Shown here one piece after another: positions 137-8,241 of a stretch of 8,241 nucleotides of DNA (positions are counted from its first letter, which is position 1; each line of letters begins with the position of its first letter). Below the pieces are notes generated by a model that ran no database searches, was not told the DNA's origin, and worked only from the letters and a program-made list of their open reading frames with translations. The position numbers were made by a program, and so were the translations under genes. This DNA is from Candidatus Poribacteria bacterium (GTDB lineage Bacteria; Poribacteria; DTPJ01; WJIO01): NCBI GenBank assembly GCA_014730235.1, contig WJIO01000256.1, positions 1 through 8,241 on the forward strand, written 5' to 3'.

Positions 137-835
137 ATGGAATATAAGAGTCTACATTCATGGGATATATCATATGATGAAGCTGTTGAGATACAACGAG
201 GGTTGAAATCTAATATTGAAATAAAAAGCCTGAAGAAATATCCTGATATTATTGCCGGGGCTGATGTTTCATATTCCAGGGGCAGCAATATTTTTTATGC
301 AAGTGTTTTGATCTTTGATATGTCCAGTCTGGATATTCTGGAAGAAGCCAACGGGGTTGGGAAGGTAAATTTTCCCTATATTCCTGGGTTATTGAGCTTT
401 CGGGAAGTGCCGGTTTTGATTAAGGCCTTTGAGAAAATCAAGCGCGTTCCGGATGTCGCTATGTTTGACGGGCACGGCATATCTCACCCCCGGGGTGTTG
501 GCTTGGCTTCTCATCTTGGTTTGATGTTGGACATTCCTACTATTGGATGCGCCAAAAAGAAACTTGTGGGGGATCATAAACCCCTGGGGGATGAAGTTGG
601 CGATCGTGTTCCTATAGTTTATCAGGATGAAAACGTGGGCGCTGTGGTAAAGACTAAGAAAAATGTAAAACCTGTTTACGTTTCACCCGGTCATAAGATG
701 GATATTGATTCGGCTGTTGATATTGTTTTAAAAACCTGTCGTGGATACAAGCTTCCTGAACCTACCAGACAAGCTCATCTGTCGGTAAATCGTTTCAGAA
801 CTTCCTCTGATCAGAAAGAACTTTTTGATGATTAA
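137..835 (+). CDS. nfi: Endonuclease V (deoxyinosine 3' endonuclease)
   Basis: This cytoplasmic DNA repair enzyme nicks DNA at the second phosphodiester bond 3' of deoxyinosine, the product of adenine deamination. At 232 residues it is close to the usual length of about 220-230. Family motifs are all visible: GADVSY with metal ligand D43, the PYIPG wedge at 80-84 that reads the lesion, FRE with E90, DGHGISHPRG with D111 and H117, and C-terminal LPEPTRQAH with H214. These match the D43, Y80, E89, D110, H116 and H214 set known from the Thermotoga enzyme, so the protein should be active. The ATG start has only a weak AAAGAA-like ribosome site, but it places D43 and H214 at the family positions. 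The last 8 bases overlap the sppA start. The residue matches are seen directly; the activity is inferred from the family. Confidence 0.96.
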   Translation: MEYKSLHSWDISYDEAVEIQRGLKSNIEIKSLKKYPDIIAGADVSYSRGSNIFYASVLIFDMSSLDILEEANGVGKVNFPYIPGLLSFREVPVLIKAFEKIKRVPDVAMFDGHGISHPRGVGLASHLGLMLDIPTIGCAKKKLVGDHKPLGDEVGDRVPIVYQDENVGAVVKTKKNVKPVYVSPGHKMDIDSAVDIVLKTCRGYKLPEPTRQAHLSVNRFRTSSDQKELFDD

Positions 836-3188
836 ACTCTCCGTCTTTATTGCCATTTTATTGTCTTTGGGTTTTTGTGCCTCAGCAGATATGCTGCCTG
901 ATTGTGTCTTTCTACCTTCGACTTCCACTGCCGTTACTGATGATGCCCTGGCGACGACCTTTAATCCTGCTGGGCTGGGGATAAAGACTGGCGTTAATGC
1001 CTATTACCTGCATACCTTTGGCAACGAACCCGGTGGGGATAATGCCTTTTATATATCCGCATCGGGTATTGGATTTGGCGCGGAATATTCCAATCCCGGT
1101 TATGCCAGATTCTCCAAGTATACGATTTCCAGCGGGGGCAAGGTTGTTGACGGTCTTTTTATTGGTTCTGACTATGTTTGGTATGAATCGGATAACGAGA
1201 ATTATGACAGGCTCAGTTCGTGGGATGTGGGGATTATCTACCGGCCTGTTGATATTTTTTCGGCTGGATTTGTTACAAGCAATATAAGACGTCCCAAATT
1301 TTATGATAAACGCACTGATTATTCATACAGTCTGTCTCTTGCCTTCAGGCCCTTTACCAACCGGGTTACATTTTCTGTTGACAGCGCGCTGGTGCAGGGG
1401 CAGAAGATCAAAGACGCAGGTCTGGTATATGCTCTGGAAATTGAGCCGCTGGATGGAATACTGCTAAGAGGAAATTACAACAGGGATGGTGACTTTGGGT
1501 TTAGTCTGGCTATTGGATTTAATCATGTCAGAATGGGTGCATATAACCAGTTGGATGACGAAGGGGAATATAAAACCAGTGTTTTCTATACCCAGTATTC
1601 GGGGGAGAAATACCGATCTATGCTTCAAAGGGAAAAGTATTTGCTGGAACTGGAAGGCAATAATCTGGGATTATTGAGATATGCCAAGGATGATAAGTCA
1701 ATCCAGGGGGCCATTATTAATCTGGGATCGGAGGGATACAGCTTTGCCAGAACCCAGGAACTGCGGGATTATATTCTGGATTTCAAGGCTGAGGGCAAAA
1801 AGATTATATGCTATATGGACTTAGCAGGGGATAAGGAATATTATCTGGCCTCGGCTTGTGATATTACCCTAATGAATAAAGCCGGTTATCTTTCCCTCAA
1901 TGGTTTTAGCTCGGAATTGACATACTATAAGGGCCTGCTGGATAAACTAGGTATTAATGCGGATTTGTACCGCATTGGAAAATATAAATCAGCTTCGGAG
2001 ATGTTTACACATGAAGGCATATCAGAAAGCCACAGAGAATCCCTGAATTCCATGCTGGATGATTTAACCGAACAGTTAGTTAATGGAATTGGAGAAAATA
2101 AAGATATACTGAATAACCGGGTGACTGATATGATAGATCTGGGGCCATATACGGCCAAGGAAGCTCATAAGGCAGGGCTGGTGGACGATTTGGTCTATGT
2201 TGACCAGATCAGCAAGGTTAAAGACAGGGCGTTTGGGGAAAAAATCGGCAAGCTTTCGGGTAAAAGCTACAAGTATGTAAAGGATTATAATTATGACTGG
2301 ACTCCAAAACCGAAGATAGCTGTTGTCTATGCCAGCGGGATAATGGCACCGGGTGAGAGTATGTTTGTTGAGGATTTCGGTTCGCTTTTGTCCATTCCAA
2401 GTATAATGGGGGCTGATACTATATCCAGGGCTTTGAAAAAGGCTAGGGAGGATGAATCGGTAAAGGCCATTGTTTTGAGAATAGACAGCGGCGGGGGATC
2501 GGTTTTTGCCTCTGACCTGATATGGCGGGAAGTGGTGCTGTCGAAGGAGAAAAAACCTTTGGTGGTTTCCATGGGTGGTGCGGCGGCTTCCGGCGGTTAC
2601 TATATTGCCTGTCCGGCGGATTATATTGTGGCTGAACCGGCTACGATAACCGGTTCAATTGGTGTTATTGCGGGTAAATTCAGCTTTCATGAGCTTTATG
2701 ATAAACTTGGCATAGAGAAAGAAATTGTCAAGCGGGGGGAAAATGCGGATATTTTTAATCTTTATAAGGATTTCAGCGACGAACAGCGGGAGATTGTGAA
2801 GCGGCATGTTAGGGAGATGTATGACGATTTTGTGTCGAAGGTGGCCCAGGGCAGAGATATGGATGTCCAGGACGTGGAGGAGATAGCTCAGGGCCGGGTT
2901 TGGACAGGACAGCAGGCCAAGGAACGCAATCTGGTTGATGAACTGGGTGGTCTGCATTTGGCCATTACGGTGGCAAAGACCAGAGCTGGCCTCGGGGATG
3001 ATGATGAAGTGAATTATGACATTTATCCCAAACGGTTATCTTTCTGGCGGCGGCTTATTGTTGATAATGTTTCATTGTTGTATGGTAAAACAGGTTTCGA
3101 TTATTTGTCGAGTCTGGCAGAATCTTTGGAAGGTCTTGCTGATGAAAATATGTTCTTTATCCTGCCTTATGGACTTGATCTGGAGTAA
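828..3188 (+). CDS. sppA: SppA-type signal peptide peptidase (S49) with N-terminal beta-barrel-like domain
   Basis: SppA is a serine protease that degrades signal peptides left after protein export. Residues 1-20 form a Sec signal peptide ending CASA. Residues 21-260 are rich in alternating aromatic/polar strands, with NPAGLG at 46-51, resembling FadL- or PorV-type outer-membrane barrels. From about 270 there is a full tandem S49 protein. The first repeat carries YLASACDI and RIGKYKSASEMF, with the catalytic lysine as K387. The second (about 495-715) carries RIDSGGGSVFAS, MGGAAASGGYYIA with nucleophile S588, TGSIGVI and IAQGRVWTGQQAK. K387 and S588 match K209 and S409 of E. coli SppA. At 786 residues it is about 170 longer than that 618-residue enzyme, because of the barrel-like part. 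The ATG at 828 is chosen over TTG at 825. It overlaps nfi by 8 bases and lacks a strong ribosome site, suggesting translational coupling. The SppA call is secure; the barrel call is inferred. Confidence 0.93.
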   Translation: MIKLSVFIAILLSLGFCASADMLPDCVFLPSTSTAVTDDALATTFNPAGLGIKTGVNAYYLHTFGNEPGGDNAFYISASGIGFGAEYSNPGYARFSKYTISSGGKVVDGLFIGSDYVWYESDNENYDRLSSWDVGIIYRPVDIFSAGFVTSNIRRPKFYDKRTDYSYSLSLAFRPFTNRVTFSVDSALVQGQKIKDAGLVYALEIEPLDGILLRGNYNRDGDFGFSLAIGFNHVRMGAYNQLDDEGEYKTSVFYTQYSGEKYRSMLQREKYLLELEGNNLGLLRYAKDDKSIQGAIINLGSEGYSFARTQELRDYILDFKAEGKKIICYMDLAGDKEYYLASACDITLMNKAGYLSLNGFSSELTYYKGLLDKLGINADLYRIGKYKSASEMFTHEGISESHRESLNSMLDDLTEQLVNGIGENKDILNNRVTDMIDLGPYTAKEAHKAGLVDDLVYVDQISKVKDRAFGEKIGKLSGKSYKYVKDYNYDWTPKPKIAVVYASGIMAPGESMFVEDFGSLLSIPSIMGADTISRALKKAREDESVKAIVLRIDSGGGSVFASDLIWREVVLSKEKKPLVVSMGGAAASGGYYIACPADYIVAEPATITGSIGVIAGKFSFHELYDKLGIEKEIVKRGENADIFNLYKDFSDEQREIVKRHVREMYDDFVSKVAQGRDMDVQDVEEIAQGRVWTGQQAKERNLVDELGGLHLAITVAKTRAGLGDDDEVNYDIYPKRLSFWRRLIVDNVSLLYGKTGFDYLSSLAESLEGLADENMFFILPYGLDLE

Positions 3189-4111: not shown

Positions 4112-4121
4112 ATGCTTTTTG

Positions 4122-4139
4122 AATTTGCTTAAGCAAGTT
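4122..4139. promoter_or_regulatory. Palindrome adjoining the ribosome binding site
   Basis: TTGCTTAAGCAA at 4125-4136 is a perfect 12-base palindrome. Counting one mismatched pair, the symmetry extends over 4122-4139. As DNA it could be an operator for a dimeric regulator. As RNA it would fold into a 7-pair stem (one G-U) with a UUAA loop that ends one base before the Shine-Dalgarno. Function is not shown by the sequence. Confidence 0.35.
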
Positions 4140-4145
4140 GGAGGT
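4140..4145 (+). promoter_or_regulatory. Ribosome binding site fixing the TTG start at 4152
   Basis: GGAGGT is a strong Shine-Dalgarno, 6 bases before TTG at 4152. The start is further supported because translation from it opens directly with a classical signal peptide. This is by far the best ribosome site in the window. Confidence 0.85.
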
Positions 4146-4151
4146 AAGAAA

Positions 4152-7100
4152 TTGAGAACACGTGGACTTCAGTTAGTTGTCGCTATTTCATTCCTTTTAG
4201 TCCTTACCGGGCTTGCATTTGCAGCGAAGACTGAACTTTCTGAGGACGCTGTGCGCGTAGCTGATGAGATCAGTTTGAGAAATATGCGCGCTACTGTGTC
4301 CCGTCTTACTGCTTTACCTACCAGAGTTACGGGTTATGAGCCTGGTGAGAATGCTGCAAAGTATATTTTTGACGAATTCCAGAGGATAGGTCTGGAAGAA
4401 GTAGATAGCCAGGAATATGAGATTACTGTTCCTGTGGATCACGGGGATGGCAAAATATCCATACTGGGTTCGGATGGTAATTCAGTTATTGACGAATTGA
4501 AACTTTCATGTCTATGGCCCAACCTTGTACGTACATCTTTCCTGCCTAAAGGAATAAAACATAAAGTTAAAGAAGAAGATACACTGGAAGGAATAGCTAG
4601 ATCATATGGCATCAGTGTATCTAAGATACTGGATCATGAATTTAACTCCTACCTAAAAGACCAGGCCACAGATGGACGTGATAATAACTCAAACGGTGAA
4701 ATTGATGAAGAAGGTGAAATGGTACTTTTCCGGGATAAGGATATATTAATACCTATAGAGGGAATTACCGGAAGATTAATCTATGCTTCTTCCTCTGGTC
4801 TTGAAGATTTTAATGATAAGAGCGTTGGTGGAAAATGGCATGTAGTACAGCCTGATGATACAATTGACGATATTGCTCATGGTTATCGGGTTGGGGTTGG
4901 TAGTATTTTGGATGATGTTCTAAACCTTCATCTGGATAAGACCAATGATGATATAGATAACGATAATGACGGTGATATTGACGAAGACGGCGAAATGCCT
5001 TTGATGGAAGATATTGCCCTTTGGTATGATGACGGGATTGATAACGATAACGATGGTAATATAGATGAAATTCCCGGTGATGATAAAGACGGTATTGATA
5101 ACGATAGAGATGGACAGATAGATGAAGCGGGTGAATTTGTAGAAGCTAATGAATCATCCATATTTGTCCCCCAGGGCGCTATTGTTCTGCTGGACTTTAA
5201 CTGTGCTATGCGCTGGATAAACGCTGCCATGTTAGGGGCCAGGGCTGTTATCTTTATAGAGCCAGAGGACACTATCCGAGGTGAAGCTGAAGCAAAATTC
5301 CTCACAATTCCCGCCGCTATTCCCCGATTCTGGATTTCCCGAGACGATGCCGACAAGCTAATAAAAAATTATCTCAGCATAAAACATACTATTCAACCGG
5401 GTGAAACGCTGGAAAGTATCTCAGAACAATATGGTATGCTTCCTGAAAGGATCAGGAGATCAGAGTATAACCGGGATATTTTCCAAATGGCTGATAGTGC
5501 GGAATTGCCCACAGACATGGAAATATATATTCCCGATGAAGGGGCGAGTAACGAGATAATGGTTCAATTATCTGCAACCATGACATGGGAACGCAAAATG
5601 GGTCAGAACATATCTGGTTTATTGCCGGGATTTGATCCTGAGTTAAAAGGTGAAATGGTTGTTATCCAGTCTTATTTTGATTCCATGTCAATAGTACCTT
5701 CCAAAGCTCCGGGTGCAGATCCAACATGCGGTATTGCATCTCTTCTGGAAGTTGCCAGAGTTCTTTCTATGGAAGAAAACCGACCGGGAAGAACTGTGCT
5801 TTTCCTTGCTACCAGTGGACATTTCCAGGGTCTTGCAGGCATGCGTGCCTTTATGTATGGCGTCAGCGAAGACCTGGTAAGAACTATGTATGAGCTTCGG
5901 GAAGATCTTTACAGAGAATTGCGGGAAATACGACAACTGGGTCGCAGAATTGTCCTTGCTATAGGAAAAGGACTTCTGGTGGAACTTCCGCCTTCGTTCT
6001 TTGAGCGTGTTCAGGAGCTTGAAGATGAACTCTGGGCTTTGAGAACTGATACTTTACCTGAATTGAATCAGATGAGAAGCACAATTGAAAGCCTTAGAAA
6101 TAATAAGCGGGATGAGATTGAAAAGCGCAAAGAAAGAAGGGAAAGAACCCGTAAGCGTGAGGAAGAGAAATTTACACCAGAGGATCAGGCTCGACTTGAA
6201 GCTCTTACGGCCAGATTGACGGCTGATGCTATTCAAACGGCTTATCATTTTGACACCCTGGTTAATCAGTTAATGGAACTGAGAAACGAGGCTATAAATA
6301 AGTGCCGGGAAGAAGAAAAGACTATTATTAGAAATTATGCCCTTCCCCTTGCAAAGGCTGATATCGGGGCAGTTAAAAAGCTAAGGGATATTCATCATGA
6401 ATTGGAGGAATATAGTTCATTCCGACCCTGGATTTATGGAGATAGAAAAGGAGAAGAGGATCCTCAAGTTCTTATACAGGCCTTAAAGGAAACCGCAAAT
6501 AATTATGGCGGCGAAATTGTAATTGAAAATGAAAGAGATGTTGATGAACTGGTGAAGCAGTATTCCTACGGTAGAATTGCTGACCGCCATCTGGATTCTT
6601 CGGAATATTTAAGGCTTAAAAAGGCCCGAAAGATACTCTGGAAAAGAGATAAAAGCGTAGACTATGAAGCATTGGAAATAGAGTTACTAGGAAAAGCTCT
6701 CTCTTCTGTTGAAAATAGATCCAAGAGTGATATAGATAGAATTAACGCTCTCCTTAAAAAGCTTTCCGGCTTGAGCAAGGCAGAAAAGATAAAGAAGTAT
6801 ACAGATGAGGAAATAAAGTTAGTTGGTGCCCATCTTTCGGAGGATAAAGTTGAGCGTTTGATTGAACTCAGAAAACGAACAATAGACGCCAAGACCGATG
6901 TGGAGAAATATCTGGCAAAGGAAAAGGATGTACTGATGCTTGCCAGTTATAACGCCCGTAACGCTTCCCGATTGATGACAAATTTACTGGCTTTAGCCAA
7001 GCAGGTTGAACTTACCAGAGAATATACTGTGGAAGAAGAGAGGATTCTTTCGGTAAATTTAAGTGAAAAGGAGTTTGAGAAGATTGAGCATGCCCGGAAA

Positions 7101-8241
7101 GTTATCTTTTCAAAGTATGATGAAACTCAACTCCTGGATAAAATATATTCAAGGGCTTTAAATGATGTAGCTGACCTGGAATCATTTATAACAATGCTGG
7201 ATACGATGGAACGGGCAACTACAGACCAGGAAAAAGTGCTGCTGCGTGATAACCTTCCTACCCTTAAGAACTCCCGCATAGGAAATATTCATAAGAAAAT
7301 AGGAATATTGTCGAGGGTTGACAGGGATGAGTATGAGAGAAAAATATCACTTTTGATGCAGATTATAAATTTGCAGGACAAGTTTAACAGATATTATAGT
7401 TCACTTTTTGTATCACTGGATTTATCCACTCAGGGAAGTCAGCTTGGTTTATTTGGCAAAGGCTGGTTTTATGATCAGCAGCCGGAGTTTGTATTAAGAA
7501 GAGAGTTTGCTTCTATCGGAAACAAATGTTCTGAGTATGCCAATAACGCATCTTTTGGAAGGAATATACACTATCTCAGCAGGTATACTGATGACCAGAT
7601 ACGCCAAGCTGCTATATCCGGTCAGTGGAGTGCCGCGGCTTCTACCAGGACAGTTGAAGCCATAGAAGGTAAAACTCTGGAAAGCCTGGTAGCAGATCAT
7701 TACAGTACTCTTATCAGTTTGGGTGGTGTAAACCGTCTGATGAAGCTTCAGTTCCAGGATATGAAGAACAGGGGTGAGCCTTCTAAAGAAATGCTAAAAG
7801 ATATGGACTATCTCCGCAAAGAGGTGTCCAGATTTATCCGAACTGCTATCAGAGACAAAAGGAAAGCCCGTAAATCTAGAATGACTTTATATAGAAAACT
7901 GGATGAGATGCTGGAATTGAAGGAGCTGAAACCGGAGGAACTTACTCCTGAAGAGGCTGAAGATGTTTCAACTCTTATCAGCTTGGCTGGTATAGGTGGA
8001 GGTAGTAATTTCGTAAACGCCATAAGCGCTACTGGTGGTAAAACCTGGAGAACCTATATTCCCGGTAAGATCGCCTTTGATAGTGAAGTAGCTACCCTTG
8101 CGGGTAAGACAGGTATTGCTTTTGCGACGGTGAATGACGCCAGAGTTCTTACGGATACCCCGTTGGATACATTGGACAGGGTGAACTTTGATAATCTTCT
8201 GGAGCAGACGAGGATGCTGTCCTCGATTCTTATTCAGATAC
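4152..8241 (+). CDS. Giant exported M28-type pseudo-peptidase with PA-like domain, three inserted LysM units and helical inserts (partial, 3' end missing)
   Basis: The frame is open to the window edge (1363 codons). Residues 1-24 are a Sec signal peptide ending AFA. Residues 26-116 look like the start of M28 peptidases (LPTRVTGYEPGENAAKYI). PA-like segments at 202-228 and 341-407 (GAIVLLDFN, LGARAVIFIE, ISRDDADKL) are separated or flanked by LysM-like units at 137-201, 229-340 and 411-461. The M28 core resumes at about 468 (VVIQSYFDS, PGADPTCG, TSGHFQGLAG), breaks for a charged helical insert at 577-1076, resumes with FVSLDLS, breaks again at about 1160-1285, and ends TDTPLDTLD at 1334-1342. 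M28 enzymes need His, Asp, Glu-Glu, Asp and His. Here Y508, H557/F558 and D1335 replace the two His and the Glu pair; only D523 and D1090 remain. A catalytic role is therefore doubtful, and a cell-envelope glycan-binding or scaffold role is a guess. It has its own promoter and a TTG start. The M28 fold is well supported; inactivity is inferred. Confidence 0.85.
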   Translation, partial: MRTRGLQLVVAISFLLVLTGLAFAAKTELSEDAVRVADEISLRNMRATVSRLTALPTRVTGYEPGENAAKYIFDEFQRIGLEEVDSQEYEITVPVDHGDGKISILGSDGNSVIDELKLSCLWPNLVRTSFLPKGIKHKVKEEDTLEGIARSYGISVSKILDHEFNSYLKDQATDGRDNNSNGEIDEEGEMVLFRDKDILIPIEGITGRLIYASSSGLEDFNDKSVGGKWHVVQPDDTIDDIAHGYRVGVGSILDDVLNLHLDKTNDDIDNDNDGDIDEDGEMPLMEDIALWYDDGIDNDNDGNIDEIPGDDKDGIDNDRDGQIDEAGEFVEANESSIFVPQGAIVLLDFNCAMRWINAAMLGARAVIFIEPEDTIRGEAEAKFLTIPAAIPRFWISRDDADKLIKNYLSIKHTIQPGETLESISEQYGMLPERIRRSEYNRDIFQMADSAELPTDMEIYIPDEGASNEIMVQLSATMTWERKMGQNISGLLPGFDPELKGEMVVIQSYFDSMSIVPSKAPGADPTCGIASLLEVARVLSMEENRPGRTVLFLATSGHFQGLAGMRAFMYGVSEDLVRTMYELREDLYRELREIRQLGRRIVLAIGKGLLVELPPSFFERVQELEDELWALRTDTLPELNQMRSTIESLRNNKRDEIEKRKERRERTRKREEEKFTPEDQARLEALTARLTADAIQTAYHFDTLVNQLMELRNEAINKCREEEKTIIRNYALPLAKADIGAVKKLRDIHHELEEYSSFRPWIYGDRKGEEDPQVLIQALKETANNYGGEIVIENERDVDELVKQYSYGRIADRHLDSSEYLRLKKARKILWKRDKSVDYEALEIELLGKALSSVENRSKSDIDRINALLKKLSGLSKAEKIKKYTDEEIKLVGAHLSEDKVERLIELRKRTIDAKTDVEKYLAKEKDVLMLASYNARNASRLMTNLLALAKQVELTREYTVEEERILSVNLSEKEFEKIEHARKVIFSKYDETQLLDKIYSRALNDVADLESFITMLDTMERATTDQEKVLLRDNLPTLKNSRIGNIHKKIGILSRVDRDEYERKISLLMQIINLQDKFNRYYSSLFVSLDLSTQGSQLGLFGKGWFYDQQPEFVLRREFASIGNKCSEYANNASFGRNIHYLSRYTDDQIRQAAISGQWSAAASTRTVEAIEGKTLESLVADHYSTLISLGGVNRLMKLQFQDMKNRGEPSKEMLKDMDYLRKEVSRFIRTAIRDKRKARKSRMTLYRKLDEMLELKELKPEELTPEEAEDVSTLISLAGIGGGSNFVNAISATGGKTWRTYIPGKIAFDSEVATLAGKTGIAFATVNDARVLTDTPLDTLDRVNFDNLLEQTRMLSSILIQI
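4560..4754 (+). other. LysM-like unit 1, inserted before the PA-like domain
   Basis: Residues 137-201 begin HKVKEEDTLEGIARSYGISV and end DILIP, matching the LysM pattern of a V-x-x-G/E-D-T-L-x-x-I-A start and an L-x-I-P close. LysM modules usually bind peptidoglycan or chitin-type glycans. The unit is lengthened by an acidic DNNSNGEIDEEGE loop at 177-189, placed between the second helix and the last strand. Confidence 0.72.
4680..4718 (+). repeat. Acidic calcium-loop-like repeat, first copy
   Basis: Codes for residues 177-189, DNNSNGEIDEEGE. It shares the G-x-I-D-E-x-G-E ending with the cluster at 4956-5135, showing that the same motif was placed into two different LysM units. Confidence 0.6.
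4836..5171 (+). other. LysM-like unit 2, inserted inside the PA-like domain and expanded by acidic repeats
   Basis: Residues 229-340 start WHVVQPDDTIDDIAHGYRV and close SIFVP. It is about 112 residues against a usual 45 or so, the excess being three acidic repeats at 269-281, 297-306 and 316-328. The flanking text reads SVGG before and GAIVLLDFN after, which would join smoothly into a PA-domain strand if the unit were removed. Confidence 0.7.
4956..5135 (+). repeat. Cluster of three acidic calcium-loop-like repeats
   Basis: Three units code for DNDNDGDIDEDGE (269-281), DNDNDGNIDE (297-306) and DNDRDGQIDEAGE (316-328), following a D-x-D-x-D-G-x-I-D-E pattern like EF-hand, dockerin or thrombospondin type 3 calcium loops. 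At DNA level they share GATAACGATA and related strings. Calcium binding is inferred from the ligand spacing. Confidence 0.7.
5382..5534 (+). other. LysM-like unit 3, between PA-like and M28 core segments
   Basis: Residues 411-461 start KHTIQPGETLESISEQYG and end MEIYIP. This is the most typical of the three in length (51 residues) and lacks an acidic insert. It separates the end of the PA-like part (DDADKLIKNY) from the segment leading to the M28 core (MVQLSATMTWERKMGQNISG). Confidence 0.75.
5880..7379 (+). other. Long helical insert splitting the M28 core
   Basis: Residues 577-1076 are rich in Glu, Lys, Arg and Leu, with heptad-like spacing and very few Pro or Gly, so they should be mostly alpha-helix with coiled-coil stretches. 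Residues 652-673 are an extreme charged run of Lys/Arg/Glu. A short less helical patch (about 755-790, FRPWIYGDRKG) may mark a turn between helical arms. I recognise no family. It lies exactly between the M28 motif TSGHFQGLAG and the returning strand FVSLDLS. Confidence 0.6.

Follow-up and report, generated by a model that had tools for sequence, protein, structure and literature searches.

LysM units set singly into the PA/M28 ectodomain of a giant FtsX-type ABC permease from Candidatus Poribacteria

Type VII ABC systems such as MacB pass an ATP-driven movement to the periplasm and carry no substrate across their own membrane (PMC5985334). FtsEX works via the coiled-coil protein EnvC (PMC7668044), and for YbbAP it has been proposed that the hydrolase TesA is presented with hydrophobic molecules (PMC12646458). 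With the protein described here, FtsEX-EnvC/PcsB, LolCDE, MacAB and YbbAP-TesA share an FtsX-type C-terminal transmembrane (TM) domain, a MacB-like periplasmic core and a separate ATPase encoded in the cluster; the partner is a coiled-coil protein in FtsEX and a hydrolase in YbbAP. Unlike the known type VII ABC systems, our protein has a giant ectodomain with internal LysM units in the same chain, and three extra TM segments. The M28 plus PA fold of this ectodomain, with the same strand order across all junctions discussed below, occurs in the aminopeptidases BSAP/YwaD (6hc6) and Aneurinibacillus AM-1 (2ek8), which have no LysM, TM or permease part and whose own zinc ligands are intact, unlike those of the Poribacteria head. 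Transferrin receptor 1 and nicalin reuse the same M28 fold as a membrane-tethered ectodomain. Their ectodomains are non-enzymatic. Both proteins are eukaryotic and have neither a LysM nor an ABC permease. LysM units themselves mostly lie at the ends of proteins, central positions being less frequent (PMC4004799). The units reported here share the PF01476 motif and the β-α-α-β order with other LysM proteins but, unlike the usual ones, sit singly in the loops of another fold, two of them broken by acidic loops. LysM, PA, M28 and FtsX are thus each known already. A partial literature search, limited to open-licence papers, returned no report of LysMs placed singly in PA loops or of LysM together with M28, and nothing relevant on a class of M28 plus FtsX-like permeases, on LysM with a calcium-binding insertion or on Poribacteria LysMs.

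The window analyzed here, 8241 bp in length, is the whole of one contig (C188) of a 5.5-Mb Candidatus Poribacteria genome. Its genes are those for endonuclease V, an S49 (SppA-like) protease and a small membrane protein, together with the 5' part of a giant gene, whose ORF is open at its 3' end, runs off the contig and goes on in contig C304 of the same genome. The two contigs have a 9-bp end, TTCAGATAC, in common, and C304 holds the C-terminal ~1050 residues of the giant protein together with the downstream genes. We number residues from the start of the ORF at 4119. An earlier note, made from the sequence alone and counting from the TTG at 4152, had proposed that three related LysM units (its residues 137-201, 229-340 and 411-461, our residues 148-212, 240-351 and 422-472, nucleotides 4560-4754, 4836-5171 and 5382-5534) were inserted one by one into and around a PA domain at an ordinary M28 N-terminus. 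The features of the gene are as follows.

4119..8241, + strand: N-terminal 1374 residues of a protein of ~2420 residues (ORF open at the 3' end, C304 ORF, alignment with full-length orthologues)
4152..4235, + strand: hydrophobic segment at the N-terminus, either signal peptide or anchor (hydropathy)
4515..4553, + strand: strand region WPNLVRTSFLP, preceding LysM1; in homologues free of inserts it joins 4758-4826 without a break
4554..4757, + strand: LysM1, residues 146-213 (Pfam, model, absence in homologues)
4671..4718, + strand: acidic DGRDNNSNGEIDEEGE loop inside LysM1 (sequence; missing from LysM1 of family f3)
4833..5171, + strand: LysM2, residues 239-351 (absence in outgroups, profile match to LysM1, model)
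4944..5141, + strand: three acidic DxDNDxDG...DE repeats inside LysM2, following helix 2 and preceding the last strand (sequence)
5172..5378, + strand: PA core after LysM2 (GAIVLLDFN...PRFWISRDDADKL), conserved in insert-free homologues
5379..5534, + strand: LysM3, residues 421-472 (Pfam; restricted occurrence)
5556..5858, + strand: first half of the M28 fold (Pfam, residue counts across 51 sequences, fold and profile matches)
5859..7404, + strand: helical insert of ~510 residues between the two M28 halves (alignment with insert-free outgroups)
7551..7988, + strand: second helical insert, ~140 residues, in the C-terminal M28 half (alignment)
7989..8241, + strand: end of the M28 fold, FDSEVATL...TDTPLDTLDRV (alignment, profile comparison)

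All three LysMs are missing, at the predicted places, from eight Armatimonadota and Planctomycetota homologues (L118-L123, L125 and L126). Because these insert-free sequences align across all three junctions, alignments and models strongly suggest that the flanks of the inserts belong to one continuous PA/M28 domain, much as the earlier note had read them. When a profile of five insert-free sequences is compared with 2ek8, an aminopeptidase with a PA domain, the match is unbroken over 291 positions and covers all three junctions (E=3.6e-18). The M28 family PF04389 scores 30.7 bits against a cut-off of 21.3, and PF02225, the PA family, reaches 16.9 bits, with its best stretch at residues 350-414, under its cut-off of 23.9, in a domain that is split by the inserts. 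An AlphaFold2 model of the window protein (51 sequences, mean pLDDT 84, pTM 0.76) was compared with solved folds using Foldseek and VIA-align. Residues 10-554 of this model match the zinc aminopeptidase BSAP (M28 plus PA) with Z=18.3 over 267 residues, and further matches were found to glutamate carboxypeptidase II and the transferrin receptor. The predicted structure of the insert-free homologue L125 matches BSAP with Z=26.1 over 384 of its 407 residues; in the insert-free model, the C-terminal half (residues ~470-750) was predicted with low confidence and was left uninterpreted. Despite the sub-threshold PF02225 score, a PA fold is thus predicted at its place inside an M28 protein in both the window and the insert-free models. 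The insert of ~510 residues is probably a coiled-coil, and a Pfam search with it returned no convincing family. A different, helical-looking insert of roughly 200 residues precedes the WPN strand in the Armatimonadota homologues L120-L122, so that insertion into this ectodomain is seen in more than one lineage.

Following the M28 head, the TM pattern shows three TM segments and then an FtsX-type permease with four TM segments. The C-terminal piece on C304 matches PF02687 (FtsX) with 51.4 bits (cut-off 25.5) and MacB_PCD with 24 bits, just under the cut-off of 27; in NCBIfam, no family scored above its cut-off. This four-TM FtsX arrangement with a periplasmic core is that of a type VII ABC permease. 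The genes downstream (L131, C304 5154-9832) encode a multi-TM protein of ~670 residues, a protein of ~340 residues, a PqqD-like protein and, four genes from the permease, an ABC ATPase (PF00005, 121.7 bits). Pfam contains no family matching the ~670-residue membrane protein or the ~340-residue protein. The same set of genes is found downstream in other Poribacteria, and Armatimonadota have a close equivalent of the cluster, to which a short FtsX protein is added; in L119, the genes for this protein and for the ATPase lie directly upstream. Judging from gene order, the cluster ATPase may pair with the giant permease. The cluster proteins of unassigned role could mean that a specific substrate is transported.

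We analyzed the anatomy of the three inserted units. Pfam locates three LysM stretches in the protein, with a whole-protein E=1.1e-15. Scored alone against PF01476 (cut-off 20.9 bits), LysM1 (31.4 bits) and LysM3 (25.4 bits) are above the cut-off and LysM2 (14.3 bits) is below it. The comparison of its family profile with that of LysM1 (E=8e-20) nevertheless suggests that LysM2 is a LysM, and its segment in the model follows the LysM order of strand, helix, helix and, further on, strand. All three Pfam matches span just profile positions 1-25, in LysM1 and LysM2 because an acidic DxDNDxDG loop separates helix 2 from the final strand. In the model, DSSP assigns β-α-α-β to all three places, with PA/M28 strands in between; our statement on the fold rests on these predicted assignments and on the matches to solved folds above. 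The LysM3 profile matches LysM1 with E=2e-16, LysM2 with E=1.6e-9 and unrelated LysMs of the genome with E=4.6e-10, and its best score is to LysM1 of other Poribacteria. LysM3 is hence closest to LysM1, which fits the idea that related copies were inserted repeatedly. All three units follow the LysM pattern, but they are not equal beads, as LysM1 and LysM2 carry nested acidic loops.

LysM1 of family f3 is a plain unit of 48 residues rather than 68, and the other LysM1 bearers have the unit with an acidic loop of ~20 residues. In LysM2, the acidic repeats number two rather than three in L086, L093 and L099. A Pfam search for a known family, such as Ca2+-binding acidic repeats of the thrombospondin-3, EF-hand or MopE type, gave no match to the acidic loop segment even at E up to 10; repeats of low complexity may be lost to the filters of HMMER. 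From the motif, the loops are probable Ca2+ binding sites.

The catalytic positions of the M28 head are altered. In the window protein, Tyr-519, His-568 and Phe-569 are substitutions, and Asp-534 is kept. In terms of aminopeptidase numbering, His-97 is replaced by tyrosine and Glu-151 by histidine in 51 of 51 sequences, and Glu-152 by phenylalanine in 47 of 51. The HTPEDS motif of BSAP reads DTPLDT, with Asp-1346 in place of the histidine. The equivalents of Asp-117 and Asp-179 are retained in the window protein. Three of the five zinc-ligand positions, and the general base, are thus changed in every lineage examined. Because the zinc ligands and the general-base glutamate are substituted, we do not file the head as a peptidase: it is likely a pseudo-peptidase in every lineage examined. 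The host of the LysMs is therefore not the ordinary M28 N-terminus of the earlier reading but, as judged from these substitutions, the pseudo-peptidase ectodomain of an ABC permease.

Since permease and partner here form one chain, in which the partner is a dead M28/PA head that in Poribacteria has peptidoglycan-type LysMs in its loops, we propose wall-tethered mechanotransmission: the giant protein is, with reasonable probability, a type VII ABC permease tethered to the wall and working as a mechanotransmission machine with a dead M28/PA head. One could instead regard the dead peptidase as a scaffold that binds a protein partner in the manner of transferrin receptor and nicalin, its LysMs being spacers or protein contacts that bind no glycan. 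The closest solved non-enzymes, transferrin receptor 1 (Z about 16) and nicalin (E=4e-7), would agree with such a scaffold, as would the divergence of LysM2 and the loss of LysM1 in family f8, where the gene was retained. LysM1 and LysM3 are, however, good LysMs by Pfam, LysMs are well-established binders of GlcNAc glycans (PMC4004799), and the topology puts the head on the wall side of the membrane, and we thus regard the scaffold as unlikely.

More doubtful still appears a reading in which the LysMs bring an active metallo-aminopeptidase, its metal site altered, to the wall, and the ABC part exports peptides or feeds them to this enzyme. The M28 fold is strongly conserved, as seen in the BSAP matches of both the window and the L125 models, and two aspartate ligands are kept together with an invariant histidine at the Glu-151 position. 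The E151H mutant of the Aeromonas enzyme (PDB 2anp) is described as 'functional' in its title, and YbbAP-TesA is a precedent for a type VII ABC system with a periplasmic hydrolase (PMC12646458). Against this, the Tyr-97 and Phe-152 replacements, the aspartate in place of the C-terminal ligand histidine, and the altered general base extend through all lineages examined. Some other chemistry at this altered metal site, with its invariant histidine, is possible.

The homologues form a natural deletion series. LysM2 is present in all Poribacteria sequences aligned, and so is LysM1, except in L105 and L111 (family f8), which are also without LysM3. LysM3 is limited to the window and a relative of the same order (L030/L048, on one contig) and is missing from every Poribacteria sequence aligned outside this order. 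The spacing between the WPN strand and the next PA strand is 8 residues in f8, as in most outgroups; with LysM1 in place it is 77 in L048, 57 in f3 and 80 in another group. Where the homologues place the ends of the inserts, they differ from the limits first drawn by no more than a few residues. These comparisons support the separate insertion of the LysM units into PA loops, and the alignments and the model together bear out the earlier note on this point. It is very improbable that nothing was inserted and that the LysM-bearing order is ancestral: a derived outgroup state, with LysMs lost, is possible in principle, but independent outgroup lineages have near-identical short junctions in common, the same PA/M28 strands run unbroken in solved LysM-free aminopeptidases, and the LysM3 pattern takes one gain versus several losses.

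A tree of the permease part, from a quick search and with very long outgroup branches, orders these events. Family f8 nests among LysM1-bearing Poribacteria, and on this tree its lack of LysM1 is therefore a loss; we considered it as a primitive state and rejected this for the same reason. A single change (support 99) accounts for the loss of the LysM1 acidic loop in f3, and the two LysM3 bearers form one group (support 87). LysM1 and LysM2 appear to be old, dating to the base of the Poribacteria, with LysM3 a younger gain in the window's order. This gain is likely but not certain, because the outgroup branches are long and the root within Poribacteria is hence provisional.

In the mechanism that we favor, wall-tethered mechanotransmission, the permease subunit that the gene encodes would belong to a type VII (FtsX/LolCE/MacB-like) ABC machine and would carry a catalytically degenerate M28 aminopeptidase and PA domain as its large extracytoplasmic N-terminal head. 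An ancestor of the Poribacteria would have taken up LysM units with acidic, probably Ca2+-binding loops in two PA loops, and a helical sequence of ~500 residues in the M28 half; later, in the window's order, a third LysM, most likely a copy of LysM1, would have entered a third PA loop. The LysMs may clamp the head to peptidoglycan, and the acidic loops may stiffen these clamps or set their reach. The cluster-encoded ATPase would drive MacB-type movements of the stalk, which the wall-anchored head would feel or exert. Cytoplasmic ATP would thereby be coupled to a process located in the periplasm or at the wall. More tentatively, such proteins may constitute a new class of type VII ABC machines, with a dead M28/PA ectodomain as the moving head, in Poribacteria tethered to peptidoglycan by LysMs with acidic loops tuning the reach; the ATPase would then sense the wall or pull on it directly.

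The locus provides a clean natural record of domain insertion: among homologous proteins, the number of LysMs in one fold ranges from none through one and two to three, and a LysM occurs both with its nested loop and without it. This series makes it possible to test how far PA loops tolerate insertion. Scanning genome contigs with the window protein alone returned no relatives, and no paralogue of the giant protein was found in its own genome; an alignment-based scan retrieved relatives in Candidatus Poribacteria genomes. In a search of the phylum, the gene was present in 57 of 58 genomes. This points to a nearly phylum-wide ABC machine, probably linked to the wall, in bacteria that are sponge symbionts or related to them; we found no published description of it in the open-licence literature. 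The sole genome of the 58 without a match, through an assembly gap or a loss, is G027. Most other genomes have one giant permease, and G007 has two full-length paralogues (L056 and L060). In G035 (L127, 816-7066), a DNA methylase-like gene lies between the permease gene and two tandem genes for the ~670-residue membrane protein. Upstream of the giant gene in the window (825-3188), the first ~280 residues of the S49/SppA-like protease, for which a Pfam search gave no match, resemble an outer-membrane β-barrel.
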